Source: Tetragonia tetragonoides
Taxonomy: Eukaryota > Streptophyta > Magnoliopsida > Caryophyllales > Aizoaceae
Reading direction: 5' to 3'
DNA length: 64,000 bases
NCBI GenBank assembly: GCA_038025085.1
Contig: CM076154.1
Coordinates: forward strand, 22,924,501 to 22,988,500
The notes under the pieces were generated by a model. It saw nothing but the letters and a program-made list of their open reading frames with translations, was not told the origin of the DNA and did no database searches. The translations under genes and the position numbers were made by a program. Below, piece after piece: positions 13,295 through 55,910 of this stretch. Each line of letters starts with the position of its first letter. Positions within the stretch are counted from its first letter, which is position 1.

Positions 13295-13359
<65 letters not shown>

Positions 13360-20023: not shown

Positions 20024-22776
20024 ATGGCTCCTAAATTGGTGAAGAAAAGGAGTAGGAGGGCCGAGGTTCGGGAAGAGGTTGAAGAAATTGACATATTCAT
20101 CAAAGCTTTTCCCTCCCATGTCAAGCCTTCCAAGAGGAAGCCAAATTTGGCTTTCCTCGAGATAGGTATACATGGTCGGATAGGATGCCTGACATCATTT
20201 GGGATCGGTCGGAGTTGCTCTTTCGACCGGAGACTCACTTGAGCTCCCGTGCTTCCAAGTTTGTGGTAAGCCTCAAACCTTGAATTCATAGTTTTATGCA
20301 TTGAATTTTAGTTTATATGCTTTGTCTTGAGTAGAATTTGTGTAGAGATTGAATGTAATTGTCAAGTTTGTAGCGCATGTGATCTTGCGCAACTTGAACG
20401 AACATAGAAATATACTTAGGATTGAACATTTGATGAAATGTGAACCTAAGAGGTTGCAAATTGATCATAGCAACCCGACGGGAATTTGAAGCCCCATGGT
20501 AATTATGGTTCTTCGGTGAAGCTTTTTGAGATCTTACCCAAAGAGGTGCAAAGTGCAGTTTTGGGTGCGGGGTTTGGACCCCTTTTGAAAGCGGCGGACT
20601 TGGTTGAGCGAGTCAAAAGGTGCATTGTCCGCTTGTCCTTGGAATGTTTTTGGGATACCACCAACACGTTCCACTTCCCTAATGGGGAGATGATAATTAC
20701 TCCCTCGGAGTTTGCTATGCTGACTGGGGTGCCCTGCGTGGGTACGCCCATTGTGTATGACATTTCCATTTGGAAACGTAAGACTGAGATGGTGGAGTTG
20801 TTTGGCCCTTGGGGGAACACCTGGGGTCATCATTATCGTCCCTACAGCGAGTTTTATGCTGTTTTGACTGACGCGAGGTATAAGAGGAATACCTCGGTGG
20901 AGCAGAAGACGAGGAAGTTCATCGCCTATCTCCTTGCCACCACCATCTTTGGTGACAAGGGGGAGCGTATTCATGCTATTTACCTCCCTAGCTTGTTGGA
21001 TTGGGAGAGGGTGAGAGAGTACAACTGGGGGTTGCCGGGCTACGCCAACCTTTTGAGGTGCATGCGGTTTGCTTGCTGCGTGAATGACGAGGGATACAAG
21101 CAGTCGACTCTTCCTCCCGTGAGCTTGTGCGATTTTTGGAAGGCCTTGCAGGTGCGTTTTGTTTTAGTATCTGTTTTGTGATTTGCATGCCTTAAGTGTA
21201 TGGTGCTTAATTTCATGTTTCGATGTAGCTTTGGTTTTTTGAGCATTTCCTGGACATGGCGCCTACGGGCCGGGAGTCGGATTTCCCGGTTTGCAGGGCA
21301 TGGCGTCATAGGGGTCCTGCGCCCTTCTAGACTCTTCAGCAGTACATGGAGGCTCTCCTGCGCCTAGACTGGCACAAGGTAACGCAATTTTGCTTTTTTG
21401 TTGCACGGATTGTACTTCTTGGTGTGGAAATATCTTATGTTGCATGTTTGTGTAGATTGACTAATTTCCTTGGGCGAAGTACCATGGGTTGGCTTCAGAT
21501 GCTATCCTGGCATCTAGGGCGATAAACTTCCAGAGGATCCTGATTGCGGGTCCGTTCTCTTTTGAGTGGTATTTGGGAGAGCGGATCTTCCGTCAGGTTT
21601 ATCCTGATGTGGTGGGACCGAGGATTCCCTTGGATCCCCCCTCGACCATGTTCTTGGTGAGGTGCTTGTCTCGCGAGCAGGTTGCAGAGGCCATGGTGGG
21701 CTCAGATGCTATGCGGTATTTGAGGGAGCTTGCGGGGCACTACGAGCAACTCCGTCGTGATCACCTCATGCCTTCATTTGTGGGTTTGAAGGTAAGAGGT
21801 TCATAAGTGATATTCTATGCCTTTCTTATGTTGTTGGTTGCTAACCTTCTTTGCTTCTTAGGAGCCTCGGGTTGATGCCATCGATGTGGATGTCCCGGAT
21901 ATCCGGGTCCGAAGTCCGGATTATGGCGGGAAAGAGTGTTGGGGAGAGGTCCCGATGACGGAGGACCTTGATGAGGATATCCAGGGCCTTCCTTTTCCAG
22001 TTGGCCATCCAGGGATAAACTTGTCATTTTGCCTGCTGCATGTGATTTTACCGTTTTCATGCTTGTATTTGACTTTTCTTTGCGCAGCTTGACCGTGAGC
22101 AGACCGGGAAGGTCTTCAAGATGATGCATGCTATGAAGTCCTGAATATCTCGAGCTCTCTCAAAGGGCACTTGCTCGAGAGCTGACTTGGATAAGGTGAG
22201 CTTGACTTTGCATCTTCAAAGTTGTATGCTTTGAGAAATGTATCTTATATGTTTGGTGGGTTGCAGGTTGAGTACCGTCGGCCCCTTCCTCGTCGGTCAC
22301 GATAGGTGGTTATGTTTGATGATGAGGTTGTGAGCTCTCCTGAGCGTAGCCTTTCTCACGAGAGGAGCCCTCGGAGGGAGAGTCCTAGGAGAGAGAGAGA
22401 GCCTGTGCATCGGACGGAGCGTCCTGGTGGGAGTAGGATGACTCAGTTTGTGGAGCCTACTCCTATGCCTATGCCGATGTATCCTTCTATTCCTGGGTAT
22501 GCAGGGTATGCTCCTTATGGCGGTCTTTACTACCAGTCCCCTGTCCCTGCTCCTATGATGCCTACCATGCCTCCTCGTTCCTCTTGGGGGTATGATTCGA
22601 GTTATGCTGGAGAGGGGTGCTCATATCGGGAGCCTGCCCATCACTCTTCCTTTAACCCTGGCCAGTTGGTGGCGTCAATCTTTGATGATGAGCCACGGAG
22701 GTCGGAGGATCACTTTGAGGTGCTCCGCACGGATGCTGATGCGGGTGATGATTTCTATGATAATGTATTTGTGTGA
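20024..22776 (+). pseudogene. M antisense gene 2: plant mobile domain protein, seven exons
   Basis: Lies on the strand opposite to M gag-pol. Inferred exons: 20024-20265, 20346-21151, 21229-21378, 21456-21791, 21862-22014, 22088-22195, 22267-22776. Introns are 70-80 bp with GT-AG ends; exons 3-6 are all multiples of three and introns are phase 0. Exon 2 has the classic PMD pattern: NTFHFPNGEMIITPSEFAML, later YLPSLLDWERVREYNWG; exon 3 starts LWFFEHF. Exon 7 encodes an Arg/Ser-rich then Pro/Met/Tyr-rich tail (MPMPMYPS). PMD proteins (MAIN, MAIL1) act in gene expression and transposon silencing in Arabidopsis. Broken here by frameshifts in exons 1 and 2, stops in exons 3, 4, 6 and 7, and a GT-to-AT donor at 22015. 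Confidence 0.85.
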
Positions 22777-24271: not shown

Positions 24272-25794
24272 ATGTCCAGAATTGGTAGAAGTAGAGATCC
24301 TGGTCCTAGGGAGTGGGAGAGAGACGAGTCCAGCAAGAGGTTAGTCCGCAAATTGTCGTTCGAACCTTCACCACAAGCACAGTTCGTGGGCCCTGTTTGG
24401 CTCGATTACGTTCGTACACCGCCACTGTCACCTCAAACCTCGCCATCCAATTCACCTAAGTCCGTTATGTCTGGAGACGCCGAGAGAACCGCTGACCAAA
24501 AGATGGATGACCTTTTAGCCCAAATGGTCGCCATGAATGCTAGATTCACTGATATGGAAGCCCGTGTCGCCAAGTTGGATCCCCCTAATAGAGATGAAGA
24601 CGAGTCCAAGCCTGATGGGGAAAAGGCCGAACGCTCCACTAAGGAGGTGCAAGAGCTTCAAACCAAGCTAAACAGGCTTGAATCCGTGTTAGGTAAGAGT
24701 CGGGCCTTCAACGACATGATCATTAATTCTGAGGGCTATGCTCCCCACATTAAGGGAAAATTGCCCACCAAGTTTTCCATACCTAAAGTTCCCACATTCA
24801 AAGGAATCAATGATCCACAAGATCACATTAGAGCTTTTACTACTGCATTGGGCCTTAGTGGCATTGAACAAGAGCTGTATGTTCACCTCTTTCCCCAAAC
24901 CTTGGATCCTGCTGTCAGGGCCTGGTTCTTCAAGTTGCCCACCCAAAAGCTGGAAAAATGGGAAGATCTATCCACACTGTTCCTTCAGAGATATGCTGAC
25001 AATGTCTTGCCGCCCATGACATTAAGAGAGCTGGACATTACCAAGCAAGGAGACAAATAAGGATTCACTAGCTTCGTGAGAAGATGGAGGACTAAGGTCG
25101 CTTGAAGATGGCCATTGAAGATGGCCAACTCCAAAGGAGGAAGAACAAAGTCACTTACAACAACAACACAAGTGGATATAGAGACAAGAAATACACCAGT
25201 ACCAACCATACCTCCACTAGTAGAGGAAATGAAGTGAACGCCATAGGTGATAGGCGTCCAAGAAGGTATACTCCCCTCGGGATGACTTATGCCAAGGCTC
25301 TAGATAAGTTGATCAAAGGAGACTATCTACACCCGATTGGGCCTATCCCCGAACCACCTGTAGAGAAAAGGTCACCATATTGGACTGAGTCCGCATTCTG
25401 CAAATACCATAGGGGGCGTGGGCACGATACTGAAAAGTGTTACACCCTTAAGGATAAAATCCAAGACCTGTTTGACAATGGCACCATACCAATGCCTAAA
25501 GATGCACCACCACTCAATAACAGTAACAATCGCCTTGGGAACTGTTTTGCTATTGACATAGAAGAAGAATTCGATCCCTCCTATTTGATCACACCTATTG
25601 GACAAGCTATACCACAATACCCAAGCCCAAGATCCACGCTCGACGTCTGCTGCCTTTGGGATAGTGATGAGGAAGATAATGGGGCATATACTGATCCAGA
25701 AAATGTGTTGACTCCTCAAGTCCATCACATAACCAATGGCAAAGCCTGGTATGATATCTCCGTGATGAGAAGGAAGAAGATGACAAAGCTCTGA
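24272..25794 (+). pseudogene. gag: P gag
   Basis: The start is taken at MSRIGRSRDPGPREW, which M shares; the upstream extension is not conserved. The protein shows a coiled region (MDDLLAQMVAMNARF), then the capsid part with FPQTLDPAVRAWFF and EDLSTLFLQRYADN. The frame stops at GDK (about 25059) where M reads on. Next, about 120 bp present in M are deleted in P, and the reading resumes at 25102. The C-terminal part has the knuckle-like CKYHRGRGHDTEKC. Its stop at 25794 is a frameshift relative to M. Confidence 0.88.
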
Positions 25795-27182
25795 ATTATC
25801 TTACGAGATCGGGACGCCAATTCAGGCCCAAAAACATCTATATGGATCCATCTCAAATCCAACCCGTAGAGCCTGTAGCCAGCCCCAATAGGGATTCAGC
25901 CCAAAGGGAAACAGCGAAAGAAGATGATGGGACCTATATCCTCAAGCAACTGCAAAGAACAAAAGCCGACATATCCATATGGCAACTATTAACCACTTCT
26001 ATCACTCATAGAAGGGTCGTGCTGGAGGCCTTGAACGCAACCACCATTTCACCAAATGCCACTCCCGAAGAGGTAGTAAACCTCTCAATCCAAGGAAAGT
26101 CATCCACGCCCATCACCTTTTCTGATAAAGACCTTCCACCCGAGGGTATTCACCACAACAAGGCCCTTTACCTGACTGTAATATGTCAACAGAGACAAGT
26201 CCCTATGACTTTGGTCGATAATGGCTCGGTTGTAAATGTTTTCCCCTTGAGGACTACTAAACACCTCAAAATAGACTGCAACAACCTTGTGCACTCCGCA
26301 CAAGGGTTAAGGGCCTATGATAATTCCAAAAGAAACGTATTGGGTACCTTCTCCATGAATATTAACATCGGGCTCATTGAGAAAATGGTCAAATTCCATG
26401 TGATAGACATTCCGGCTACTTTCGACCTACTCCTGGGGAGGCCCTGGTTACACGGTTTAAATACTGTAGCCTCAACTCTGCATCAAAAGGTGAAACTATC
26501 CTTGGCAGAATCCACCTTAGAGGTCTGCGCTGATACTATGATAGCCCAGATTGAGAAAGCTCATGTCCTAACGATAGAACATAATCAGCAAGACGAAGAG
26601 CTATGGGGTTTTGAGAAGATAGCCTTCATAGAAACAATAGAGCCCACACTGAATGTGAATGCTTTACTCAGAAAGCAAGGTCACTTCCCAGGCACCACTT
26701 TGGGCCCTCATCCCAAGGTAGCTCAAGCCTTTTGGAACACCAAGATAAAAAATGACTTGTTTGGGCTAGGCTACAGGCCCACAAGGCAAGAAGTTAGGAC
26801 CTACATATCCAAAGTGATGGCTAAGAAAAGGGCCCTTGCAGCTAACAATCCCATTGCACATAATATGGATCCTTATCCCCTCACCCTCAACGGGAAGTTC
26901 CTTCAGGAAGGCGACCCATACCCTTACTATGGATTTCCTGAACCATACACGATCAACGGGATCCTGATGCCAGGCTTTGAGGCGTTTCAAGACTGCTTCC
27001 TCATGAGCGAAGACACACCCATACCTCCCAATGAGGGCCAATCCGCTAAAGATTGGGCTAATGACATGGCACCCAATGACTTTGGGCTTTATTTGGCGAA
27101 GAGCGTCGTCAGTACGACGAGGCCACTACCAAACTTCCCCTTACTGTGCTTTTCAATGAAGGATTCGACCCAACCAAGCTGA
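25795..27182 (+). pseudogene. pol: P protease and following linker
   Basis: The frame 25842-27182 is long and clean. The protease active site is DNGS in MTLVDNGSVVNV, and DIPATFDLLLGRPWLHG follows. After the protease comes a 250-residue linker with FGLGYRPTRQEV and EGDPYPYYGFPEPY, conserved in M. The frame shifts near 27150 into the RT frame, where an acidic repeat of Asp-Ser-Glu-Ser units (about 27296-27340, built on a 6-bp DNA repeat) lies before RT. Confidence 0.85.
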
Positions 27183-29092
27183 TTGCCCCAATCGGGCCCG
27201 ACCGCACCGCCTGGAAGCACGAGACGAATTGGACTCTAGTCAAGGGAGCCAGGTACAAGTTCACCATCCGCAACGGCCCTAGAGGAGGGCCCAATTCCGA
27301 TTCCGAGTCCGATTCTGAGTCCGAGTCCGATTCTGAGTCTGTTATCCTAGAAGTGTTGGGTAGTCCACCCCAGTCTATGCTTAAGGTCCTTAGTGATGAC
27401 CTGATTGATGTATTGTCCGCTCCTATTAATATTATGAACGTCGATTTTGCTTACTCGGATTGCCTCACCACTAATAATTCAGAAAATATAACAGAATTGC
27501 CGAAAGAAGTTATTAAAGCACTAATCGAACATGAGCAAAAGACTTCAATAGCCGAAGAAACGGAGACGATAAACATTGAAACTAATGATGAGCCTCGCCA
27601 CATGCAAATAGGCTTGTCTTTAACATCTAATGAACACGAACAATTCGTAACACTCCTAAAGAATTATACGGGTGTTTTCGCCTGGTCCTACAAGGACATG
27701 CCAGGCATAGACCGCCAAATTGCTCAGCATACCATTCCACTAAACCCCGACTGCAAATCAGTCAAACAAAAGCTAAGAAGAATGAAGCCAGAGTGGGCTC
27801 TTAAGATCAAGGAGGAAGTCCAAAAACAACTAGAGGCCGACTTCATAAGAGTGGCCAAGTACCCCGATTGGGTAGCCAACATTGTCCCAGTCCCAAAAAA
27901 GGACGGACGGGTCCGAAAGTGTGTAGATTTTAGGGACCTGAACAAAGCAAGTCCAAAAGATGACTTTCCCTTACCTCACATAGACGTTTTGGTAGACAAC
28001 ACCGCCGAACACGCCCTTCTATCATTCATGGACGGGTATGCAGGATATAACCAAGTCCTAATGGCCAAAGAGGACGAAGAGAAAACCACTTTCATCACAC
28101 AGTGGGACACTTATTGCTATACGGTAATGCCGTTCGGACTTAAGAATGCGGGAGCCACATACCAAAGAACCGCTACGACCTTACTCCATGACATGATGCA
28201 TAAAGAGGCTGAAGTGTATGTAGATGATATGAACATAAAGTCCAAAGACAGAGAAGGGCACGTACCCTCACTTCAAAAGTTCTTTGACAGGCTTAGGATG
28301 TACAATATGAGGCTTAACCCCAAGAATTGCGCATTCGGAGTTACATCTGGCAAACTTCTAGGATTTGTCATAAGCACCAGAGGGATAGAAATTTATCCAT
28401 CCAAGATCAAAGCCATAATAGGCATGCCACCTCCGAAAATGGAAAAAGAAATAAAAGGCTTCCTAGGAAGAATCCAGTACATTAGCAGGTTCATTTCCAA
28501 GCTAACTATTACTTGTGAACCCATATTCAAGAAACTCAAAAAAGAGGTAAAGACGGAATGGGACGAGCAATGCCAAAAGGCCTTTGACAAAATTAAAGCC
28601 TATCTATCCGAACCACCCGTTCTAGTACCGCCCATCCCAGGCATGCCTCTAATACTCTACCTTACGGTGACAGAAACATCAATGGGGGCCATGCTAGCCC
28701 AAGAAGTAGATAAGGAAGAGAAGGCAATATACTATGTAAGCAAGAAGTTTCTGGAATATGAAACCCGCTACTCATCCCTGGAAAAGACGTGTCTAGATCT
28801 AGTAGCAACTACCAAAAAGCTACGATATTACATGCTCCAACACACGATCCACATCAGATCAAAAGAAAACCCTTTGAAATACATATTCGAAAAGCCCATA
28901 CTAAATGGTAGAATAGCAAGGTGGACCGTCCTCCTTTCAGAGTTCGACCTCAAATTTGAACATCAAAAAGCCATAAAAGGGCATGCTATTTCAGAATATC
29001 TGGCCGACCAAGCCATAAACGAACCAGATCACAAGGACGAATACCACTTCCCAGATGAAGGGGTTATGACCTTAGATACCGAAACTTGGTAG
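27146..29092 (+). CDS. pol: P reverse transcriptase and first RNase H
   Basis: The longest uninterrupted frame in the window, 648 codons. RT motifs in order: VPKKDGRVRKCVDFRDLNKA, a palm segment with SFMDGYAGYNQV, VMPFGLKNAGATYQR, and the catalytic YVDD in AEVYVDDMNIKS. The thumb has GFLGRIQYISRF. The RNase H domain follows (LYLTVTETSMGAML, YSSLEKTCLDLVATTKKLRYYM). RT copies element RNA to DNA; RNase H removes the RNA strand. The RNase H lacks the usual first aspartate (TVTETS where D-A-S is common), consistent with the decayed first RNase H of Tat elements. The frame ends at TETW with a TAG. Confidence 0.92.
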   Translation: MLFNEGFDPTKLIAPIGPDRTAWKHETNWTLVKGARYKFTIRNGPRGGPNSDSESDSESESDSESVILEVLGSPPQSMLKVLSDDLIDVLSAPINIMNVDFAYSDCLTTNNSENITELPKEVIKALIEHEQKTSIAEETETINIETNDEPRHMQIGLSLTSNEHEQFVTLLKNYTGVFAWSYKDMPGIDRQIAQHTIPLNPDCKSVKQKLRRMKPEWALKIKEEVQKQLEADFIRVAKYPDWVANIVPVPKKDGRVRKCVDFRDLNKASPKDDFPLPHIDVLVDNTAEHALLSFMDGYAGYNQVLMAKEDEEKTTFITQWDTYCYTVMPFGLKNAGATYQRTATTLLHDMMHKEAEVYVDDMNIKSKDREGHVPSLQKFFDRLRMYNMRLNPKNCAFGVTSGKLLGFVISTRGIEIYPSKIKAIIGMPPPKMEKEIKGFLGRIQYISRFISKLTITCEPIFKKLKKEVKTEWDEQCQKAFDKIKAYLSEPPVLVPPIPGMPLILYLTVTETSMGAMLAQEVDKEEKAIYYVSKKFLEYETRYSSLEKTCLDLVATTKKLRYYMLQHTIHIRSKENPLKYIFEKPILNGRIARWTVLLSEFDLKFEHQKAIKGHAISEYLADQAINEPDHKDEYHFPDEGVMTLDTETW

Positions 29093-29728
29093 CTATATTT
29101 CGACGGAGCATCCAACCAAAAGGGTTTTGGAGTAGGAATACTGATAGTATCCCCCGAAGGTGCACACACACCCATTTCAGTCAAGCTGGACCACGAGGTC
29201 ACAAATAATGGCGCCGAATATGAAGCTTGCATAATAGGACTATAATCCGCCATAAGCCTTGGCATTAAGACACTTCGAGTCTATGGGGACTCGCCACTCA
29301 TAATTAACCAAATCTCCAAAATATGGAGGGGTAAAAATGAAACCTTGGCACTCTAGCAAGAGTACTTAGATAAGATCATAGTGTATTTCAATCAAATACA
29401 CTTTACGTACCTTCCACGAGAAGATAATCAATTCGCAGACGCCTTGGCTAAGTTAGCAAGCATGATTAACATACCCGAAACCATTCGGATGATGCCCATC
29501 TGCGTGCAAAGGAGATCTGAGCCTTCATATTGCCACGCCTTGGAAGTGTTCCACGATGAAGAAGATGAGTGGTACACCAATATAAAAAATCTACTTCTCT
29601 TCCTCCTCTATCCTCCTGATTCTAGCCCTAGAGCCCAGAAAGCACTTAGAAGGCTCGCGGCCCAATTCTTGGAAGTACAGGGTGAAATATATAAGAAAAG
29701 ACCAACGGAGTCAACCTCCGTTGCCTAG
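29093..29728 (+). pseudogene. pol: P second (archaeal-like) RNase H
   Basis: Directly after the TAG the reading continues with LYFDGASNQKGFGVGIL, then NNGAEYEACIIGL, YGDSPLIINQI and NQFADALAKLAS. These carry the expected D, E, D and D catalytic residues. This additional RNase H is a known hallmark of the Tat lineage. Three in-frame stops (about 29090, 29243, 29355) inactivate it. The C-terminal part leads into the integrase zinc domain. Confidence 0.85.
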
Positions 29729-30813
29729 GTACCGAAACGGCCCATAAGGCCTTAAGGGAAGTACATGCAGGAGTGTGTGGACCGCACTTGAACGGTATGA
29801 TGCTATCTAGGAAGATAATAAGACTCGGATATTATTGGACAACGATGGAGAAAGATTGTTATGAGTTTGTCAAAAGATGCATATAATGCCAGACCCATGC
29901 CAATCTACAACACCTACAACCAAGCCCATTATATACCTTCACCTTACCTTGGCCTTTCTCAGCTTGGGGGATCGATATCATCGACAAAATAACCCCAACA
30001 GGAAAAGGGGGCCACGAGTACATACTAGTCGCAATCGACTACTTTACCAAATGGGTCGAGGCGCAATCATACGCAAAGCTCAAAGCAAAGCATGCGGTAA
30101 AGTTCATTAAGAATAACATAATAGCTAGATACCGAGTTCCCCAAGAAATCATCATTGATAATGGGTCACACTTCATGAAAGAAGTAATCAAGCTTTTAGC
30201 CTAGTTTAAGATCCAGCATCGAAAGTCATCTCCCTACAGATCACAAACAAACAGTGCAGTAGAGGCGGCCAACAAAAACATCAAGAAAATAATTGAAAGA
30301 ATGTCCGAAAATTATCATGACTGGCCAGACAAGCTACCATTCGCACTTTGGGGTTATAGGACATCTGTTCGCGCATCAACGGGAGCAACACCGTACTCCC
30401 TGGTTTACGGAATGGAAGCTGTATTACCAATCGAATTGGAGATCCCATCTCTAAGGATCGTGTTAGAAAGTCAAATCCCAGAAGTAGATTGGGTCCAAGC
30501 CCGCTACGATCAATTAGTCCTGCTGGATGAGAAAAGGTTGCAAGCTTTGCACAATGTGAGAATCTATCAGAACAGACTAACAAGACACTTTAACCAAAGG
30601 CTCAAAATGAGGGACCTTAAGGTTGGAGACTTAGTACTTAAAGAGGTAAGGGCAAATGTCACTGACCTAAGAGGCAAATTTCGACCCAACTGGTCAGGCC
30701 CGTTTATCATCACAAAGATCTTAACAGGTGGCGCTGCAAGATTGGCAGATTTAGACGGGATTGAATTTAGTCAATGGATAAACATGGATCAATTAAAAAG
30801 GTTCTATGCTTAG
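29729..30813 (+). pseudogene. pol: P integrase
   Basis: The zinc domain shows VHAGVCGPHLN, with a stop replacing the residue before its second CxxC half. The core shows WGIDIID, IIDNGSHF and NSAVEAANK, so all three DDE residues can be read. The C-terminal domain is the clean frame 30301-30813, with WGYRTSVRASTGATPYSLVYG, then KFRPNWSGPFII and ending QLKRFYA. Stops at about 29728, 29885 and 30202 break it. No chromodomain is present, as expected for Tat. Confidence 0.88.
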
Positions 30814-31012: not shown

Positions 31013-31899
31013 TTCATCAAATTCGCATTCAAAAGTTGTTAAAATTGGTGCACATAATAAACACAAGGTTGCAATATTAAAATGAGCATGTCTCTATAAA
31101 TAAATAATAATAAAGTCCATTACAAGAACTGACAATTCCTAAGCAATAAAAATAAATTAACTAAAAATAAAAGGGGACACATCACCCTTATTGAATTTAA
31201 AGCAATAAAAAAAAAGGCAATCCTAAGCTAGACATGCTCCAAAAGAGTATTTCCTAATAGACTACTCCGTAGCTTCGGTAGTAGGGACAACATCTTCCAT
31301 AGGTTCAACAACCTTTGGGCCTTCCACTTCGCGTTCCTTGGGAACCCATCTCTCTCGAACCACATGCTCTTCTTCTTTTTTAACCTCAATTAGAGGAGCA
31401 CTTGTAGAGGCCTCATGATTGTTGGCCCGAATTTGGGGCTTCTCCTCTGGCTTAGTAGTAATCTTGGCTAAAGCTTTCTTGGCCTTTGGGTTAAGAACAA
31501 TTTTCACATGCTTGACTCCCTTTTGTTTACCCTTCCCTTTAGGATCATTAGGATTAGAAAGCCTCAAGTTGGCCTTAACTGACTGGGCCTTAAGGTCATC
31601 TTGTTCGGATTTCCTGCATGAACGACGGCCTTCTGCAGTCTTACAATCCATCCAAGCCTCATAAGCTGAAGGTATCACCGTCGGAGCCTTGATATGAGGA
31701 ATAGTCTACTTAGGGCGACGATCCCATGCACACTCCCATGATCTTACCATACTAATAGTCAAAACCCGGGTTGTGGGCGCAACACTATCCTTCTGTGTGA
31801 TGATCTGGCGTTTTCCATATTGCCGCATAATACGGCTAGGAAATATATAAGTCAAATTTTGAAGACCAAGGGCTTGATAATGTCCCGTCTCCTTGCTAC

Positions 31900-33579
31900 T
31901 GATGCGGGAGCAAGTGAGCAATCTAAAGAAAAGAACCAAGATACAAGCAAAGGAACAAATATTCTTGAATACATTTTGTTTCTTTTATGGTTATGCATTA
32001 ATGTGGCTCGCACAAGCATGATTACATGGAGTTTCCATGAAAGGTCGGGATTAAAGCTCTTGTTATATGATCACGTTCATTATGGAGAACCTCGTAATCT
32101 TGGCAGTTCTGACAGTTGTTCGTATTTTGTCCATAACTCTCTCATACGAAATCTAAACGTGATGATTCAAATCTCTGTGCAAAGATACTATCGAGATCTA
32201 TAACATTGATGCTTTGCGTTTTCTCTAATTCAAAGCGCAACATGGTCAAAAACGAGTTACAAGTTACGGAATATATTCCTTGCGTGCCAAGGCAATGACT
32301 TAAGTCTAGTTATTGTGTCCTAGTTTGTTTTTACTTGCCTTAAACGTGATTTATTGTTTAGGAAAGTAGTAATCTGATTATTAGTAGCATTAGGAGTCCA
32401 TTAAGTATTAGAAAAGTTGTAAGTTAGTTCATTTTACAATTGTAATCAGTTTCATAGTTAGTTTCCTACATGGATTAGGATTCCTAGTAGCTTTGGATTT
32501 CTTTGTTTATGAATAGGGAGAGCACGGTTATTGTAACATAGACTTTGATGATTAATGATTAATACGTGAGTATTTACCCCCTCAAATTGAGTGATTCAGT
32601 TTGAAACCCTTGTGTGTGATGCGCAAGTATTGTTCTTGAGTGATTCTTGAACGAAAACCCCAACCCCTTGAGTGATTTGAGAGGTATATCCCTTTTATTG
32701 TTTTTATTTATCAAAATACAGAAAATCCCTTAATAAATCACATCACCTTGAGCAATCTAAAGAAAAGAACCAAGATACAAGCAAAGGAACAAATACTCTT
32801 GAATACATTTTGTTTCTTTTATGATTATGAATTAATGTGGCTCGTACAAGCATGATTATATGGAGTTTCCATGAAAGGTCGGGATTAAGGCTCTTGTTAT
32901 ATGATCACGTTCATTATGGAGAACCTCGTAATCTTGGCAGTTCTGATAGTTGTTCGTATTTTGGCCATAACTCTCTCATACAAAATCTAAACGTGATGAT
33001 TCAAATCTCTGTGCAAAGATACGATCGAGATCTATAACATTGATGCTTTGCGTTTTCTCTAATTCAAAGCGCAACATGGTCAAAAATGAGTTACAAGTTA
33101 CGGAACATATTCCTTGCGCGCCAAGGCAACGACTTTAGTCTAGTTATTGTGTCCTAGTTTGTTTTTACTTGCCTTAAAGGTGATTTATTGTTTAGGAAAG
33201 TAGTAATCTGATGATTAGTAGCATTAGGAGTCCGTTAAGTATTAGGAAAGTTGTAAGTTAGTTCATTTTACAATTGTAATCAGTTTCATAGTTAGTTTCC
33301 TACTTGTATTAGGATTCCTAGTAGCTTTAGATTTCTTTGTTTATAAATAGGGAGAGCACGGTTATTGTAACATAGACTTTGATGATTAATGATTAATACG
33401 TGAGTATTTACCCCCTCAAATTGAGTGATTCAGTTTGAAACCCTTGTGTGTGATGCGCAAGTATTGTTCTTGAGTGATTCTTGAACGAAAATCCCAACCC
33501 CTTGAGTGATTCGAGAGGTATATCCCTTTTATTGTTTTTATTTATCAAAATACAGAAAATCCCTAAATAAATCACATCA
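31900..33579 (+). mobile_element. LTR-LTR tandem dimer inserted in antisense gene 1
   Basis: Two directly repeated LTR-like units abut with no internal region: 31900-32745 (846 bp) and 32746-33579 (834 bp). The outer ends are TGATG...CATCA, and the 5-bp duplication GCTAC flanks the pair (31895-31899 and 33580-33584). The second unit lacks the first 12-16 bases. Each unit has a TATA-like tataaatagggag or its variant (about 32505 and 33342). Small frames shared by both copies are not convincing genes. Strand is given by the TATA orientation. Confidence 0.9.
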
Positions 33580-33774
33580 GCTACATCCGATTGCGGATTT
33601 TAAGCCCCACCACTTGACAGTCCCTCTTAGCAAAGGGCAAGCTTTAAGGTATCCACGCCATTCATCAATGGTGGATTCATAATAAAGCTTTCGGCGAGCA
33701 GGAAACTGCTTTGGTTGGTACTTGAGTGCATTAGCTGGTCTCCCAATGAAGCACATATGCTCCAAAAGCCATAT

Positions 33775-33864
33775 CTGCAAAGCAAACAAACAAAATAAAA
33801 ATTAAAGTTAGACATCCATTAAAGATTCAAACTTTATATCCATAGAAATTATTCAAGCACTCAC
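33775..33864 (-). other. Intron of P antisense gene 1, absent from T3
   Basis: 90 bp with donor caa|gtgagt and acceptor tttgcag on the minus strand. Removing it joins SPLLLQ to IWLLEH. T3 codes SPLLLQIWLCEH without interruption near 53080. Confidence 0.85.
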
Positions 33865-34579
33865 TTGAAGGAGAAGAGGGCTTCCCGTCCATCCACCATG
33901 AGTTGGTTCTTGCTTCTTGTGATCCAAGCACATTAGGGTTTTACCAAGAACAAGAGACATAGGGGTAAAATCGTTTTGAATTTGTTCAACAATTCTAAGC
34001 ATACAAGTTTTGCCGTTATTACCTCCACCAACAAAGAGCTACCTATGTAAGAGACATAAGATAAAAGCACGCCTATAATATGTCTCGTTATGATCATCCC
34101 TTACCTTGGGGAAAAAGATATCAATTACACCATTGAGGTTTAGCTCACTGGTTCTAGCCACAGCAGAGGCTTGTGTTGCAGATAAACCAAGATACCTTTT
34201 ATAATAACCTTCAAGGTTGGCCTCGAACCATGGAGTTGCGGGACCTTGGTCATGAGGGAACCCAATTATGGCGGCAAATTCTTCAGGAAGAGGGCGTAGT
34301 TCGTCATACCCGAACCTAAAAACATGAAGCTTATCATCCCAAAAATCAACAGCAACCTCAAGAAGGTTCCAGACAACTTGAACTTGCTTCAGATGGAAGA
34401 AAGCATTAAAGTGAAAGGGCACAAGTCTCATCCTCTCTTCAGGGGTCATAGATTGCAACCACTTATCAAACTTAACTTCAAAACTTGCCATGGCTGAGTT
34501 CTAAATTAATTGGAGGTTTCTCTCTCTAAAAATCTCTCTATTGCTATTGAATTATGAAGGTGATGTCCCAAAACCGGAC

Positions 34580-34850
34580 TAACCCAAGGCTTATATAAGG
34601 CTCGCACAAAAAAAGACGAAAATAAGGCAACCCGTCGGGAAACAAGCTTCAGTGGCCCATAGGGAAGCCGCCGAAGGCTCGGCGGCCCCGTTATGGCAGC
34701 CCAAGCCCAGCGGCCCAGCCGCTGAGCTTCAGCGGCCAGCCGCCCAGCCTTCGCGGCCCAGCCGCTGAGTCTGGCGGCCCCTGTTTTGACCCCCGCTCCT
34801 TCGCGTCAACCGCTGAATGCCCTCTTTTGGCCGCCGAGCCTCCTTTTCGA
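34580..34850 (-). promoter_or_regulatory. Promoter region of P antisense gene 1
   Basis: A TATA box (ttatataagcc on the minus strand, about 34590-34600) lies about 100 bp before the start codon. A GC-rich block of ccgctgagc/cagcggc repeats (34660-34810) lies upstream of it. The Tat LTR and T3 have the same order. Confidence 0.7.
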
Positions 34851-35281
34851 GACAACACTCTTCTACCCGGTTTTGGACACTTTCCTTAACCGTTTTGGAC
34901 TCCGATTTGGCTCAGTTTCCTATTTATTCTATTATTACTATTTTCTATTATTTCCTTAATTATTTATGGGAACTCCACTATTTCTTTTTTTTTTTTTATG
35001 ATTATCGTCTTTTATTTTGTTCATCCCTTTTACACTTATTAATTTTATTTCATTTTTGGCACCCCTTTCTTTTTTTCATTTTTTTTAGGGGGGATAGGGT
35101 GCACCCAATTTTAACTTTTTGGCTGTACCATTTTTTGCTACATGGCTATTACTGGCCATTTTGTTTGACTACCTGTGCATTTGCATTAAACCAATTGTAT
35201 GCAGGGACCAATAAAAATAGCAATATATTACAAAGCAAAGTCTAAACATTTTGTTCAACACAAATGTTCAAAAATTGTATC
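34851..35281 (+). other. P spacer between the two antisense genes
   Basis: No gene seen. T-rich tracts near 34980-35090. The reverse of this text is found in M at 22777-23230. Confidence 0.6.
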
Positions 35282-37839
35282 TCATATAAATACATTATCA
35301 TAAAAATCTTCACCCGCATCAGCATCTAAACGGAGCACCTCAAAGTGATCCTCTGACCTCCGAGGCTCATCGCCAAAGATCGACGCCGCCAGCTGGCCAG
35401 GGTCAAAGGAAGAATGACGGGCAGGCTCCCGATACGAGCACCCCTCTCCAGCATAACTCGAATCATACCCCCACGAAGAACGAGGAGGCATGGTAGGCAT
35501 CATAGGAGCACGGACAAGGGGCTGGTAGTAAAGGCCACCATAAGGAGCATATCCCGCATACCCGGGATAAGAAGGGTACATCGGCATGGGCATAGGAGTA
35601 GGATCCACGAACTGAGTCATCCTACTCCCACCAGGACGATCCATCCGATGCACAGGCTCCCTCTCTCTCCGAGGGCTCTCCCTCCGAGGACTCCTCTCAC
35701 GGGAAGGACTACGCTCACGCGAGCTCACGACCTCATCATTAGACATAACCACCTGTCCTGATCGACGAGGAAGGGGTCGACGATACTCAACCTGCAACCC
35801 ACCAAACATATGAGATACATTTCTCAAAGCATGTAACTTTGAAGATGCAAAACAAGTTTACCTTATCCAAGTCAGCTCTAGAGCAAGTGCCCATCGAGAG
35901 AGCTCGAGAAATCCAGGACTTCATGGCATGCATCATCTTGAAGACCTTCCCGGTCTGCTCACGATCAAGCTACGCAAAGAAAAAGTCAATACAAGCATAA
36001 AAGCAGCTAAAATCACATGCAACAGGTAAAATTACAAATTTACCCCTGGATGCCCAACTGGAAGAGGAAGACCCTGGATGTCCTCATCAAGGTCCTCCGT
36101 CATCGGGATCTCTCCCCAACACTCCTTCCCGCCGTAATCTCGACCTCGGACCCGCATATCCGGGATATCCACATAAACATCATCAACCCGAGGCTCCTAC
36201 AAGGCAAAGGAGATTAGTAACCAACAAAGCAAGAAAGGCATAGAAAAGCAAAATATAAAATTCTTACCTTCAAACCCACAAATGAAGGCATGAGGTGATC
36301 ACGACGGAACTGCTCGTAGTGCCCCGCAAGGTCTTCTGCAGGCTCCCTCAAATACCGCATAGCATCCGAGCCTACCATGGCCTCCGCAACCTGCTCACGA
36401 GACAAGCACCTCACCAAGAACATGGTCGAGGGAGGATCCAAAGGAATCCTCGGGCCAGCCACGTCAGGGTAAACCTGACGGAAGATCCGCTCTCCCAAGT
36501 ACCACTCAAAAGAGAACGGGCCCGCAATCAGGATCCTCTGACGATCTAACGCCCTGGACGAAAGAACAGCATCCAGAGCCAACCCATGGTACTTCGCCCA
36601 AGGGAAGTAGTCAATCTACACAAGCATGCAATATGAAATATTTCCACACCTTGAAATACAAACCATGAAACAAAAAGCAAAATTGCATTACCTTGTGCCA
36701 ATCTAGGCGCAAGATAGCCTCCCTATACTGCTCGAGAGTCGAAAAGGGCGCAGGACCCCTATGACGCCACGCCCTACAAACCGGGAAATCCAACACCCAG
36801 CCCTTCGGTGCCATTCCGGGAAATGCTCAAAGAATCAAGGCTACATCGAAACATGAGGCTAAGTACCATACACTTAAAGCAGGCAAATCATTAAAATGGA
36901 CACAAAAAAACAAAAACGCTTCTACAAGGCCTTCCAAAAGCCGCACAAGCTCACAGGAGGCAGAGTCGTCTGCTTGTACCCCTCATCGTTCACGCGGCAA
37001 ACCGCATACACCTCAAGAGGTTGGCGTAGCCTAGCAACCCCCAGTTGTACTCTCTCACCCTCTCCCAATCCAGCAAGCTGGGGAGGTAAATAGCTTGAAT
37101 ACGCTCTCCCTTGTCACCAAAGATGGTGGTGGCAAGGAGATAGGCGATAAACTTCCTTGCCTTCTGCTCAACCGAGGTAGACCTCTTGTACCTCGCATCA
37201 GTCAAAGCGGCATAGAGCTCGCTATAGGGACGATAATGGTGACCCTAGGTATTCCCCCAAGGGCCAAACAACTCCACCATCTCAGTCTTACGTCTCTAGA
37301 TGGAAACGTCATACACACTGGGCGTACCCACACAAGGCACCCCAGTCAACATGGAAAACTCCGATGGAGTGATCATCATCTCCCCATTAGGGAAATGGAA
37401 CGTGTTGGTGGTATCCCAAAAACGCTCCAAAGACAAGCGGACTATGCACCTTCTAAGTTCGTTCAAGCCACGCAAAATCGCATGCGCTACGAGCTTGACA
37501 ATTGCATACACTTCCTACACAATTCTACTCAAGGCAAAGCATATAAACTAAATTCAATGCAAAAAAAAAACTATGAATTTAAGGTTTAAGGCTTACCACA
37601 AACTTGGAAGCACGAGAACTCAAGTGAGTCCCCGGTCGAAAGAGCAATTCCGACCGATCCCAAACAATGTCGGGCATCCTATCCGATCGGGTGTACCTAT
37701 CTTGAGGGAAAGCCACATTAGGCTTCCTCTTTGAAGGCTTGACATGACAGGGAAAATCCTTGGTGAAGATATTGATTTCTTCAACCTTCTCCCGAACCTC
37801 GGCCCTTCTACTCCTCTTCTTCGCCAATTTGGGAGCCAT
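35282..37839 (-). pseudogene. P antisense gene 2: plant mobile domain protein, multi-exon
   Basis: Homologue of the M gene at 20024-22776, on the strand opposite to P pol. Exon 1 is 37597-37839 (MAPKLAKKRSRRAEV, 81 codons, phase 0). Intron 1 is 37515-37596. The last exon is 35282-35791 with the Arg/Ser-rich and MPMPMYPS tail, intact. The exon with GPFSFEWYLGERI (36582-36250 region) and the LDREQTGKVFKMMH exon are also intact, and the donor that is AT in M is GT here. Exon 2 has lost about 210 bp, including the segment before RRCIVRLSLERFW, and has stops after YDVSI and WGNT. It was therefore damaged independently of M. Confidence 0.85.
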
Positions 37840-38902: not shown

Positions 38903-40414
38903 TGTAGACACCCTAATCGGTTCTCATTCCCTGACACCGCAACGCCCGATGATGATGAAAATGGATTAACATGGACGTAAGTACAAAAGGACATTGCTCG
39001 GAAATCTAGACCAAATTCCTTGAAACCTCAGTCTTTGGATAGCCTTGTTATAAGGATTCCAGCGCCTTTGACCTTGCCTCAATCAGGTTTCTGGATCAAG
39101 AGATATCGCGTCTCGAAGATTTTGGTCAAAACCGCTCAATCCTGGCCCTTTGGGCCAGCCCAAGGGAAATTTCGTAATTTATAGAGCACAAAAGTCAAAA
39201 AACCCTAGTCACGCGCGCGCCGTCAGGCCCAGCGGCTAGCGCGCGACAGGGGAGGCTATCTGGCCCGCCGCTGGCCCTAGCGGCCACCACGGGCCTCAGC
39301 TGCCCTCCTTGTGGCCGCTGGACCCAATTTTTTATTGGGCCGAGGTTTGGCGCCGGGCTTTCAGCCCTAGGTCCCTAAATCCGTCCCCCAACTCTATAAA
39401 TACTCCCTTTCACCACCCTCTTCTGCGAGAGGTCAGTCAGTTCATAATTTTGAGAGTATTGAGAGCACATATTTTCCCAAATTCAGAAATCTGAAGATCT
39501 AAGCTAGCAATACACCTAGCCTAGCACCCAAGATCGAAGAGAAATCCGAATTCTACTAGTCCCGTTCGAATAGAACGTCCAGGTTAACCATCCTGAGGGC
39601 CTGATTCTTTATTAAATCTCTTGTTTTTGTACATTAATCATGTTTTATTTAGCTTTTGATTATGGTTGAATAAATCTCCATGCCTTTGATTTTGTACATG
39701 ATTAGTTTTTGAATAAATTATGCATGATTAGTTAGTATAAAGTTTGAGTCTTTTTATTAGTTTATGCAAGTTTGCATCTTTTTATAGTTTTTGCATGCAT
39801 ATAGTACCCTCCTAGCTTTATTTTAGCATAAAGTTAGCACCTTTGCATTATTTATTATTCTTTTGAAGATACTAACGGTTTTATTGATGTGCATATGCAA
39901 TATTTGGCGTGTTTAGCAAAGTTGGTAGGTTGGAGCGTTAATTTAGTGCTTTATATCATGTTCATGCTTGTTAATAGTATGCATGTAAATTGGATCTAAA
40001 TCGTGCAAAGTGATAACGTAGGTAATTTGGTTGCTCTTAACCTGCCTAGTTAATTTAGGACTATTGGACGACCGGATTTCTGTGGAACCATCTAGCATAA
40101 ATAAATATTTGACATGGATAAGCTTAGTAGAGGCCGTTAATACGGGCGATTTAGATAAGATTCGTTTTTTTTTTTTTTATTTTGTACCTACATCCCCGAA
40201 CTCAATACTTAGTCCCCATGGGCATGAGTCAATTCCCAATAGGAATTAGGGTGCACCTTTGATGGTTTCCAATTGTTTCCTTAAAATTGGTGGCCGCTTC
40301 TTATTTGCAAATTACTGTTCTTTATAATTAATTTGAATCGCATGCATATATTTAAGAACCATTAATTCCAACTAAATATTTCAATTAAGCGCTGGAAAGG
40401 CGGGGGTTCTTACA
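38903..40414 (+). repeat. P 3' LTR, complete
   Basis: 1512 bp from tgtagacaccc to gggttcttaca. The TATA box ctataaatac lies at 39393-39402. A GC-rich block (39205-39320) lies about 73 bp upstream of it. This is the only complete Tat LTR in the window and the reference for the M LTRs. Confidence 0.93.
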
Positions 40415-47975: not shown

Positions 47976-50127
47976 TTTGTAACACCCCCGAATTCACAAC
48001 GATTCCAGGAAACTATCGACGTCATTATCCATGACTCGACACTGCTGAACCGTCAAGGACCCAAGGGAATGCTACTGCAACATTTATCGCTAAGGAGTAA
48101 ATGCTAAGAAGGAAGGGAAACTAGGTATCAAACGAAGCATCTAAAAAAATTAAACATAAATATCAGAGTTATCTATCCAGCGGTCTTATGTCCATTATAG
48201 TTTTGTAACAACTTTGCCTTCAAGGGCATAAACCAAAAATCCCAAAATATCCAAAGTAACCAATAATCAATAGTTCTAACAGACAACCCACATTCAACCT
48301 TCTAGCGAACCGTCCTCACTCAGCTACACCTGCACTCTGGTTTCCGTGGCAGAAACAAGGTACAGAGAAAAAGAGAAGAAACAAAAGAAAACAAAAATCA
48401 GATAAACTAAATAAACGTCGTCCATACCCAGTAAAAACACTTTCGCAAACCTTACCTGGGTTTTAGAAGAATCATTGAAATTCATTTGCATGCACAAGTA
48501 GTCATACAATCAAGCACACGCATACTCAATATTCAATTAAATGCAATTCTTGCTTTAATGATCATTCGAACACAAATAGATAAACCATCTTGATTAGAGA
48601 AATAAGAGAGCGAATAGAACAGCGATTACCCATACTGTTCATAGATAGATATAGACATGCCATGGACTTACTCTACTGTATACTCACACTACCTCTAACA
48701 TAATAATCGATATGTAGAGAATTAAACGATGGGGAATGATCCGTCCTGAACATACTACGAGGTGTCCATAAAAGTAACTTGAGAATCACGAATCGCTAGA
48801 CTACATCAATTAGATAAGTCTTGGTAGCTCGACTACTCCTAGGGATCGATTAGGAGTCTTATTCTCATTTATAATTCAATTCACATACTTGCATTGATTG
48901 ACCAAGTAGTACAACGAGACCACGACATACTACTTCATTTCATGCTCATGATAATGAATAATAATAATGATAATAACATAACGGCATATTAATCATGCTT
49001 CATATATGTCTTAACGAAATTTCGGCAGCACTTCGGCAGTAAATCATGTTATCCAAAAATTACACTTTTACCAATAACATCCAACAAATATATTAGGTGC
49101 TCATTAGCACTCAATAATAACCCATTCCAAATAGCACATATTATTATATCATAATAATATTAGAAATTCAACATCGCCATAATTAAACATTAATTAGCAT
49201 ATGAACTAATTAATTAACGAAGTTCCATAATCTCATCATACTCATTATAAATCATATTTACAGCGAAGAATATAGTTCATATTCTCATAATTAACGACGA
49301 TATAATTTAATCATGCTTAGCATATTAAATTCACAATAATAATCAATTAGCACATAACATATCAAAATAGTTTTGATGGGGCTTTGGAAAGAGATAGGCA
49401 CAATCGCTTATCTAACAAACGCTCACTAAGCATTAAGTAACTTATCTAATCACAACCCGATCACGCTTGTCCGTTTGGTCCTAATTAAAAATAATTATCG
49501 AGACATAATTAGTAAATACGAAAATCGAAAAAGTACTAAAACTGTAAACTAATATTATTATTAAATTTTTTGATTTATTTCAACCAATCTAGGCTTTTGA
49601 AAATCCGGATTCGGACTGCGAACGAGTACAGAAAAATAAAAACAATTATTGAAAAATACTGAAAATACGATGTTAATTAAAACGAAAATATTAAACGAAA
49701 CCCTAACCGGTTATTCGAGCCTAGGCCATGATACACCAAGCATGGGGACCCATGACCTAGCCCATCACCAAGACCACCACCCACCGACCACCATGGTCGG
49801 CGTTGGCTCGCCGGAGCACCGGCGACGGAGGAGAGTGAGAGTGAGAGAGATCGCGCGAGAAAGATAGAGTTCGCGAGGGAGAGAGAGAGAGCGACTGAGA
49901 GGGGGAGGAGCGACGAGCAGGGTCCCGTCGTATCGGCCACTCGCCGGTGACCACCCAGGCACGGCGGTGGCGCGACAGCCGCGACCCGACGAAAACAGGG
50001 GAGGGGGAAAATAGAGCACGGGAGAGAGAGGGAGAAAGAGAGAGAAAGGAAGAGGGAGAAGAAGGGGCGTCTCAACTTGGTGGTGGCCCTGGTTTCTCCG
50101 GCGACTGGCGGCCGAGCAAGGGGGAGG

Positions 50128-50129
<2 letters not shown>

Positions 50130-50208
<79 letters not shown>

Positions 50209-50215
50209 TGTGTGT
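50130..50215. repeat. (GA)n(TG)n microsatellite in E2 5' LTR
   Basis: GA run of about 77 bp and a short TG tail, downstream of the LTR TATA box in the transcribed direction. Confidence 0.95.
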
Positions 50216-50320
50216 CGTGTGAGAGGAGAGAGAAAAGAGAGTGAGTGCCGTGAGGGAGGAGAGAGAGAGAATTGGGTTTTTGGCTCAGTTCTGTAAACTG
50301 ATTAACTGACCCATCTCTTA

Positions 50321-52419: not shown

Positions 52420-53724
52420 AATTGAAGGACCCTGACTTGAGGACAGCCTATGATGGTTTCGTTGAGCTGGGGGCTTGCCTCTTTTCAATACATGATAGCC
52501 TTCCTAGTAAGGCCCTTCCTTTCTTTTCTTGCTTCATGTTCTTGAGTCATACTTATGCTTTAGTTGGTCCCACTCCTCTTGAAGAAGGGCTCGTCTCCCT
52601 TCTCCATCACTGCAAGAAAGGCAGTTCAAGTAGGTCTCAGAAACTTGAGTTGGGGCAATCACCCGAGGTAATGTCCAACGATCTCTGCCACCCCAATATT
52701 TTCCCCAATCCGCAGCAAATTCAGTGGTCAAAGCCGAGATAGGTGTTCTCGTGGTCTCTCGACGAGGGATAACCTACTTCAACCCATATTGTCTCATGAC
52801 CCTAGAAGGAAAGAAGAGAGTACTCATGTACAGACCCATTGTGGTAGTGTAAGGAACAAACTTGCAGCAAGCCACTAAAGAAGTGAGGTTCCGCCAAGTC
52901 ACATGCAAACGGATAACAGATCCTGCATGGAAAAAGGCCTCCCATTCAGCAAGGGTCTTTTCATCATATAGCCTTCTCCTAACCAAGAAGCTAGCAGCGG
53001 TATAAGTTTTTATGACCAGGGTTGAGGGGTACAAGCTATCATCTTCTCTGGTGACTCTATCAACCTTAGATGCTCACATAACCAAATTTGAAGCAGCAGG
53101 GGGCTGCCAGAAAAAGCTTCGTGAGGCGAGATTTTCAACCTGTCAAGCCCTATAATAGTTTCCCCTACAACCAGATGCAAAGGAGAGTGCCCTTCAACCA
53201 TTTGATTCACCACTCGCAACAACGAGGCTCTACCCAAGTTCGAAGACTCTGCATTAGCAAACAGTAGACGGTTTAACACGCAAAGTACAAAATCCTGTCG
53301 GCGGCAACGCCTAAATATTGCATCTTTTTCAAAAGAAATAGCAAACTTTTAACAAAGGTTGAACTAAGTCCACATCGACGCCAACGATCATGCTTTTGGA
53401 TTCTGCAGATGACAACCCTAGGGATTTCCTGTACTGACCACTAAAACCATCTGTGAAATAAGACACAGTTGGGGGAAGAACATCAGACATATTAGTGATT
53501 GCAGCAAATTCTTCAACTAGACGGCATAATTCAGAATTACCAAAACGCAAAACATGCAAGTCGGGGTCCCAATAATTCAGAGCAGATTGAAGAAAGGGCT
53601 ACAATATTTTGGTTCGTCTTAAAGCAATTAAGGTAGAGACGTGGAACGAAGCCATATCAAGTTTATCTTTTATGGTCAGATTTTTGGCCTAAGCATCGAA
53701 CAGGTTTTCGAAGGATTTCACCAT
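52420..53724 (-). pseudogene. T3 antisense gene 1: plant mobile domain protein
   Basis: Opposite strand to T3 integrase. Start at 53724 (MVKSFENLFDA), then a stop. Conserved blocks in order: WDPDLHVLRFGNSELCRLVEEFAAI (matching the P block LHVFRFGYDEL), FVLCVLNRLLF, GSPLLLQIWLCEHLRL, LAEWEAFFHAG, LFFPSRVMRQYGLK, and SDGEGRRALLQEEWDQL, which matches the AEGRRSCRK region of P. The intron of P at LLLQ/IWL is absent here. Five or more stops or shifts are present. Similarity to P is at protein level only. Confidence 0.78.
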
Positions 53725-53789
53725 GGTAGAAGCTTTGGGAATTTTTGAGAGAGTTAAAGTCTAAAAAGTGATACGACATCAAGCATCCC

Positions 53790-54321: not shown

Positions 54322-55910
54322 TTATAAAACGGTCCTGCACTGCTCAACCGGAGTCATCATCGCCATTGTTGTCAGCCTCATCATCAATGGACGGTCCTTG
54401 GCCATAGTTTCCAGACGAACAGTGGAAGGAGCCCTGAGTACTAAAAGAGCTATAAATGGATCTGCTGTTGTTAGGCCTAATATCCCGTCTATCATATGCT
54501 GGTGCATGCATGGAGGTACCTGCAGGAAACCCCGCGGCGAAGAAGCTCTTTTTGGCTTGACTAGCAAAGTCCATAGCCACATCCTGATACTAAGGCCCAG
54601 TATGAGGCACATCCCATCCAGAGGCGTTCGCCCAACCTCCAGCCATGGGGTAACAATAGGCCTACTATCAAAAGAAGGCTGAAAACCCGCTGGAGAAAAC
54701 ATCTCAGGCACGGGAATGTGCGGAATAGACGGTTTGGGCGCCTCATCAATAGGAGGGCTGGTCACAGCTACGGGAGGTGAACGAGCAATAGAAGGCTTGA
54801 TCGCCAAAGAGCCTCTCGCAGCAGAAGAATGTCGAGGTCCCACCGAAGATGAAGACTGCGACATCTGCAAACAATCAAGATCGAGATGTTAAGTTAAGCA
54901 CTCCACTTAGCTAAACAAAGGATGAAAAGTCCACTTACGTCGACAGTCCAAGACCGAGAACTCTTCCCTTTGCCCATCACCCGACTATAGCCTTTCTTCG
55001 ACAGGTGAATGAGCATGAATGCTTGAGACGTCTGCTCCCGGTTCAACTAGAAGAAGAAACAAAAAAATAGAGTTAGTATTCAAAAGCAAATACAAAACAC
55101 AAGAAGGGATAGAAAGAAACTTACCCCTGTAAAACCATCAGGCAAGGGCAAGCCCTCCACGGTCTCTCCATCAGCAATATGTAGAGGGAACTCCTCTACT
55201 ATACGTCTCCCACTCTAACCAATATACCTCACCTCATTAGTCGGCAAGGTCACGCTTGGGGGCTGGCCCCGAGGAACTCTAGAATTGGACCTCCTGGGAC
55301 CCTGAGGAGCCAAACGATCTGCCAGCAAGACACAGAAAGTCAGTATATCACACATATAGCTGAAAAGACACAGAAAAAACTTCTTACCTCAGAAGTCAGG
55401 TCCGGCATCAGACGACCCAAGCAATAGGCTAAGTACACAGTCGTACGATCCAAGCCAGCAATCTCCGGCTCATTAAAGTACGTGGTTGCCATACCGCGAG
55501 CCACGACCCCCCAAGTCCTCCATGCTCAGGCTGCGCTGGTAAAACATGGTCATGGAGGGATCCTTCGGAACGAGATAACCACCCAAGGCAGCATAAACCA
55601 GCCGAGTCAAATGGTCCCTCAAGTACCACAGAAAGCCAAATGGCCCCTCAACGACCACCCGTATGGAGGTTACCCTAAAAGACTCCGTGGTAATATGGGG
55701 AGGAACCCCAGGAATATCGTCAAAGGCAGCCCATGACACCTGCAGATTACCAGATCAAAAGTTCATTCACACCATATGGACCAGAAAACAAATGCACATA
55801 TACTAACAAGTCAACGACAACATACCACATATGCAGCCTAACTCTCGAAGGTAGCCCGAAAATGCTCGAAAGAGGTAAATGAGTGGGTATCTCTGCCAAT
55901 CCACCGTGAG
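54322..55910 (-). pseudogene. T3 antisense gene 2: plant mobile domain protein, exons 3-7
   Basis: Homologue of the M and P genes, cut at its third exon by C1. Exon 7 is 54322-54864 (Ser/Pro-rich tail, not conserved in sequence). Exon 6 is 54939-55046 (LNREQTSQAF), exactly 108 bp as in M. Exon 5 is 55125-55319, ending GLPLPDGFTG where M has GLPFPVGHPG. Exon 4 is 55388-55739 (EGPFGFLWYLRDHL, matching AGPFSFEWYLGERI). Part of exon 3 is 55832-55910, with a GTATGT donor. Introns are 68-92 bp with GT-AG ends. Frameshifts and stops are present. Confidence 0.8.

Follow-up and report, generated by a model that had tools for sequence, protein, structure and literature searches.

Two genes of the plant mobile domain superfamily, both antisense to pol, in a Tat-lineage retrotransposon of Tetragonia tetragonoides

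Plant mobile domain (PMD) proteins are required for transposon silencing in Arabidopsis, and hosts may have taken the domain from transposable elements (TEs). Here we describe two genes of the PMD superfamily, gene 1 and gene 2, which lie antisense to pol in a Ty3/gypsy element (P) within a 64,000-nucleotide stretch of the Tetragonia tetragonoides genome (contig CM076154.1, positions 22,924,501 to 22,988,500; the window), and compare them with their counterparts in two further elements of the window, M and T3. As an initial annotation of this DNA had stated for MAIN and MAIL1, the Arabidopsis proteins MAIN, MAIL1 and PP7L, which interact, have a role in TE silencing as well as in gene activation (PMC7156037, PMC9899485). 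They share the PMD superfamily with the pair in P but are host genes, MAIN and MAIL falling in clade PMD-C. Among TEs, one screen of plant long terminal repeat (LTR) elements met PMD more often than any other atypical domain (PMC9289625), 57% of Ogre elements contain pfam10536 (PMC6317226), and the clades PMD-A1 and PMD-A2 are encoded exclusively by Gypsy elements, the authors leaning towards domestication of PMD (PMC5418596). The same paper documents the capture of host PMD genes by Mutator-like elements (MULEs) and speculates on an anti-silencing role for the captured genes, and counter-silencing has been put forward for TE-made PMD proteins generally (PMC8616336). Antisense open reading frames (ORFs), which the annotation had described as known in the Tat lineage, are indeed common in Retand, Grande and RIRE2 elements (PMC7264820, PMC11963269) and occur in 15 Ty3-gypsy families of common bean (PMC4093653); in one survey all Retand clusters had antisense coding regions, 97% with a predicted DNA-binding TRP28 (PMC11963269).

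Like P, the PMD-bearing Ogre elements belong to the Tat lineage and carry a PMD accessory gene (PMC6317226), P itself being placed at the level of Tat. The passages of that survey on PMD are silent on orientation and pairing, whereas P has two antisense genes with introns; the survey used getorf to collect extra ORFs with a minimum length of 250 codons, a procedure which a spliced gene could escape. PMD-A1 and PMD-A2 are also Gypsy-encoded and, as two separate clades, possibly correspond to gene 1 and gene 2, a likeness drawn from their description; the relevant passages (PMC5418596), however, do not place both clades in one element. Retand, Grande, RIRE2 and the bean families share with P antisense accessory ORFs between pol and the 3' LTR, but those of Retand encode Transposase_28 and other domains, unlike gene 1 and gene 2. 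The term 'mobile domain' is absent from the main text of PMC11963269 and PMC4093653, and 'plant mobile' from that of PMC7264820; a Pfam scan of antisense pieces from P, M and T3, a subset of the antisense ORFs of the region, gave no Transposase_28 match. Literature searches for DUF7745 (the family to which gene 1 is related, see below) and for PMD together with Gypsy and antisense orientation returned no paper, and no PMD pair in one element is described among the literature matches listed, although Steinbauerova 2011 may contain one. Earlier publications already cover the PMD genes of Ogre/Tat elements, accessory ORFs in antisense orientation and the counter-silencing idea. The literature searched showed no single element that combines two intron-bearing antisense genes from deeply separate parts of the PMD superfamily, an arrangement that may be new.

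The two genes of P are a real and conserved accessory pair, as seen in their content, order, strand and splice plan, in the selection on gene 2 and in the deep conservation of gene 1. As annotated, they lie on the strand opposite to pol between the end of the integrase (30813) and the start of the 3' LTR (38903), and the limits given for the pair, 31262 and 37839, correspond to the stop codon of gene 1 and the ATG of gene 2. A second RNase H between the first RNase H and integrase is a mark of the Tat lineage (PMC6317226), and P was assigned to this lineage of Ty3/gypsy because it has one there: three broken pieces (29093-29242, 29246-29353 and 29357-29725) match RVT_3 positions 2-52, 55-87 and 95-123, each singly under the Pfam cut-off. 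All copies of gene 1 and gene 2 in the window are broken by stops, frameshifts or both.

Gene 2 is a PMD gene. Exon 2 of its copy in M (20471-21151), with 227 open codons, matched PMD (PF10536) at 57.4 bits and E 1.9e-15, the Pfam cut-off (gathering score) being 34.9 bits, thereby ruling out chance. The search of translated exons against PF10536 that the annotation had proposed thus gave a match above the cut-off for gene 2, and the motifs assigned to this gene (TFHFPNGEM and YLPSLLDW) were found in both P and M. The exon 2 piece of P alone scored 23.3 bits (E 4.4e-5), under the cut-off, and exons 1, 4, 6 and 7 matched no Pfam family. The sole database match of exon 2 was a Rhododendron molle protein, 36% identical. 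That M carries gene 2 held good: its seven-exon plan is that of P, relative to M's own strand (Table 1). Five of the six introns in M are bounded by GT..AG, the donor of intron 5 being altered; in P this holds for introns 3-6, whereas a deletion has removed the acceptor of intron 1 and intron 2 has an altered donor. The end of exon 5 is placed here one base beyond that in our scripts, so that the intron starts with GT. In P a 209-base deletion spans the start of exon 2, and exons 2 and 3 contain both stops and indels. In M, exon 1 has an indel, exon 4 a gap of 12 bases, and exons 3, 4, 6 and 7 contain stops. The last exon encodes an arginine/serine (RS)-rich stretch and a proline/tyrosine-rich tail. 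The AlphaFold model of a gene 2 relative was unusable (pLDDT 36).

The gene 2 protein was kept by selection before both copies died. The comparison of P with M covered 663 codons; 8 codons with stops, 8 with gaps and the exon 2 segment that P lacks were excluded. It gave a nonsynonymous divergence (dN) of 0.053, a synonymous divergence (dS) of 0.363 and a dN/dS of 0.145 (bootstrap 95% 0.104-0.192); the neutrality test suggested in the annotation therefore came out as not neutral. Differences at codon positions 1, 2 and 3 across the seven exons numbered 41, 36 and 130 (130/207 at the third), a pattern that supports the exon frames. When the exons were frame-shifted by one or two bases, dN/dS rose to 1.47 and 1.44, respectively, while in the correct frame it was below 0.30 in every single exon. 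As a control we used the ORF which, from its place and motif, we take to be the protease region of P and M; a Pfam scan gave no match to it in P. Its dN/dS was 0.105 (0.071-0.152), and 1.28 and 1.87 when shifted. Since the value for gene 2 is near that of the protease ORF, the antisense protein was constrained about as a replication protein is, until the copies died.

Gene 1 in P has an in-frame stop in exon 1 near 34041 and then stays in frame up to a GT donor. The two motifs reported for it were located on the minus strand, EEFAAIIGFP near 34.28 kb and FPSRIMRQYG near 31.85 kb, and its tail is lysine-rich (21 K in 147 residues). A nested insertion splits the gene; its outer ends are TG..CA-like with a 5-bp direct repeat (flanks read by eye), and it looks like a tandem LTR pair of another element. 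The window holds no further long copy of this 834-bp repeat, and gene 1 of T3 is continuous without it. The annotation had read both genes as PMD, which stands for gene 2 (57.4 bits) but not as such for gene 1. In Pfam the pieces of gene 1 in P had no PMD match; exon 1 matched DUF7745 (PF24924) at 18.1 bits, under the cut-off of 26, and there was one further match at chance level. When residues 1-150 were searched against 5.8 billion proteins, P0001 was the sole match among 207 candidates, at E 2.1e-21 and 39% identity, which rules out chance for gene 1. P0001 itself is above both cut-offs, with 44.2 bits for DUF7745 and 41.2 bits for PMD (positions 13-345 of 347); its residues 1-270 and 280-371 align to gene 1 of P, and 20-375 to that of T3. 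A wider profile search gave 41 proteins at E 0.01 among 7994 scored candidates. Of the 39 gene 1-type rows that were aligned (exon 1 of P plus 38 proteins; P0002, P0022, P0029 and P0042 omitted), 36 matched DUF7745 and 16 matched PMD at E 0.001. Judged from sequence, gene 1 thus appears to be a member of a PMD-related DUF7745 branch and not a plain PF10536 match. The window holds no recent gene 1 pair, so the support for this gene comes from deep protein conservation. P0001 had no relative by sequence in the PDB. The AlphaFold model of a gene 1 homologue (pLDDT 77, residues past 300 mostly poor) gave no structure match at E 0.001.

The diverged element T3, whose integrase is 57% identical to that of P, has gene 1 followed by an exon of gene 2 in the same order and on the same strand as P, as had been annotated. 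The gene 2 piece was found at E 7.2e-11 among the ORFs of the window, and the exons for the N-terminus would be expected on the far side of a younger element (55.9-64 kb). Four T3 pieces, three of them of gene 1, had no Pfam match at E 1. The families of gene 1 and gene 2 were linked by profile comparison (95.6% probability, E 1.2e-8, 255 columns), plain BLASTP between their homologues giving E 0.15. A quick tree (44 rows, P0042 omitted, no bootstrap) set 4 gene 2-type rows apart from 40 gene 1-type rows with an SH-aLRT (Shimodaira-Hasegawa-like approximate likelihood ratio test) of 100; the long branches leave its details unsure. Gene 1 appears to fall in the DUF7745 branch and gene 2 falls in the PF10536 branch, and the profile link together with the deep split therefore marks them as two branches that parted long ago and not as products of a recent duplication.

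At the site of the gene 1 intron of P, both T3 and P0001 run uninterrupted. Among 39 gene 1-type proteins, 14 are contiguous at this site, 17 continue with V, as expected from a gene caller reading into the GT donor, and 8 do neither; the sorting used a rough residue pattern, and P0015 and P0017, counted in the 14, may fit the 17. The T3 site without the intron lies near 53100, and homologues such as P0026 (Vaccinium darrowii) apparently have the intron. Probably the intron is old, with more than one loss, or gain, in its history; its exact loss would require a spliced mRNA to be copied back.

Table 1. Coordinates of the features of elements P, M and T3 in the window
Feature	Position	Strand	Basis or remark
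P pol (protease region, reverse transcriptase (RT), RNase H, second RNase H, integrase)	25755..30813	+	ORF listing and Pfam
P protease region	25755-27182	+	ORF listing
P RT and RNase H	27080-29092	+	ORF listing and Pfam
P second RNase H, three broken pieces	29093-29725	+	RVT_3 matches
P integrase ORF end	30813	+	ORF listing and Pfam
P 3' LTR	38903..40414	+	
P gene 1 (DUF7745/PMD-superfamily)	31262..34491	-	broken: stops and insertion
P gene 1 exon 1	34491-33865	-	ATG 34491
P gene 1 intron	33864-33775	-	GT..AG, 90 nt
P gene 1 exon 2	from 33774	-	split by nested repeat
P gene 1 C-terminal part	~31895-31262	-	holds FPSRIMRQYG and another stop
Nested insertion within gene 1	31915..33582	.	two tandem 834-bp copies, 27 mismatches
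P gene 2 (PMD)	35282..37839	-	7 exons, short introns; broken; ATG 37839, stop 35282
P gene 2 exons 1-3	37839-37597; ~37452-36923 (5' end deleted); ~36840-36692	-	
P gene 2 exons 4-7	36615-36268; 36196-36044; 35969-35862; 35791-35282	-	
M gene 2	20024..22776	+	broken; M itself on minus strand
M gene 2 exons 1-3	20024-20265; 20471-21151 (open PMD core); 21229-21378	+	
M gene 2 exons 4-7	21456-21791; 21862-22014; 22088-22195; 22267-22776	+	
T3 gene 1	52558..53730	-	placed like that of P relative to integrase; broken
T3 gene 2, piece matching exon 4	55476..55754	-	44% over 50 amino acids

P is nested within M, which lies on the minus strand with its left part at ~17.4-23.2 kb and its right part at 40.4-45.6 kb. 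The 5' LTR of P is apparently almost wholly gone at the left junction. M is truncated at ~23231, and the gene 1 region is absent from it because of this cut. Direct repeats of 2.7 kb, 92% identical, flank M and P (11101-13778 and 47978-50638) and resemble the LTR pair of a large outer element that received first M and then P; this outer element may split the pol of T3. GA-rich simple repeats at 13264-13446 and 50088-50221 give rise to spurious RE-rich ORFs. Minus-strand RT regions of another Ty3/gypsy group occur at 1-2425 and 14531-16964; they are about 29% identical to the RT of P and 69% alike mutually at the DNA level. A further element at 55911-64000, in the 3' region of T3, contains repeats (55911-56273, 63608-64000) as well as, near 58.7-59.1 kb, an ORF carrying a zinc-knuckle-like motif. 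Rfam and tRNA scans gave no match. Pattern matches obtained in IMG/VR (2 for P0001, 1 for M exon 2, 43 for an integrase piece and 59 for the gene 1 alignment) and in GTDB genomes (101 stretches for the gene 1 alignment) yielded no confirmed relative.

We propose, with a probability of roughly 60%, that these elements form a family with two nuclear regulators made from separate antisense mRNAs and likely aimed at MAIN/MAIL1/PP7L. In the living element each gene would give rise to its own antisense mRNA, that of gene 2 being spliced from 7 exons; the splice sites of gene 2 and the selection on it are observed, and the antisense expression is what we infer. The antisense placement would let introns survive retrotransposition, the genomic RNA being the other strand. 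The proteins have basic or RS-rich tails and both would most likely be nuclear, regulating the transcription or chromatin state of the element. Their likeliest target would be the host MAIN/MAIL1/PP7L pathway with the same domain, with which they might compete or which they might use as a co-activator, and interference with this pathway is plausible. The annotation had likewise taken a conserved PMD pair to hint at manipulation or evasion of silencing, which comes close to the hypotheses in print. A separate idea involving the DOWN motif failed, as the motif was not enriched. The picture of selection on gene 2 is not quite simple, as its introns differ between P and M at 15.4% (79/513 positions), less than synonymous sites do; this low divergence may stem from base composition or from the way of counting.

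It is also quite possible, at somewhat short of even odds, that the two proteins are element-specific regulators of transcription or replication to which host silencing is irrelevant, like the accessory genes of complex retroviruses, PMD being ancestral to the elements and later domesticated by hosts. The Gypsy-only clades PMD-A1 and PMD-A2, with their authors' leaning to domestication (PMC5418596), and the Retand antisense regions with predicted DNA-binding TRP28 (PMC11963269) agree with this, and nothing direct opposes it. Less likely is a counter-silencing role in which the two proteins, as a pair of decoys, would poison the MAIN-MAIL1-PP7L complex: host PMDs of the same superfamily function as an interacting set (PMC7156037), perhaps as heterodimers (PMC5418596), the general idea has the precedents in print cited above and gene 2 is strongly selected, but the relationship between gene 1 and gene 2 is no more than remote (profile link; BLASTP E 0.15). 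We consider it doubtful that the element builds its own two-subunit PMD complex from spliced antisense mRNAs, copying or jamming that of the host; were this true, the exact absence of the intron in T3 and several homologues would mean that a spliced antisense mRNA was reverse-transcribed and recombined into the element. The antisense RNA of the region is complementary to the genomic RNA, and tea has 175 phased small RNA (PHAS) loci at PMD genes (PMC10673657), yet it is improbable that the transcripts themselves act, as double-stranded RNA or phased small interfering RNA, with the proteins incidental: the excess of third-position substitutions (130/207) and the dN/dS of 0.145 point to selection on the gene 2 protein, and RNA as the sole explanation of gene 2 is disfavoured. 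That the genes are recently captured, functionless fragments of host genes, for which MULE capture offers a documented parallel (PMC5418596), is scarcely credible, given a gene order common to P and T3; for gene 2 it is refuted by purifying selection between copies.

The pair, of which at least one gene was kept about as strictly as the protease region, would provide defined natural proteins to set against the host complex, and the old idea of elements meddling with host silencing would become easier to test. The finding also suggests that spliced antisense genes can escape surveys relying on uninterrupted ORFs.

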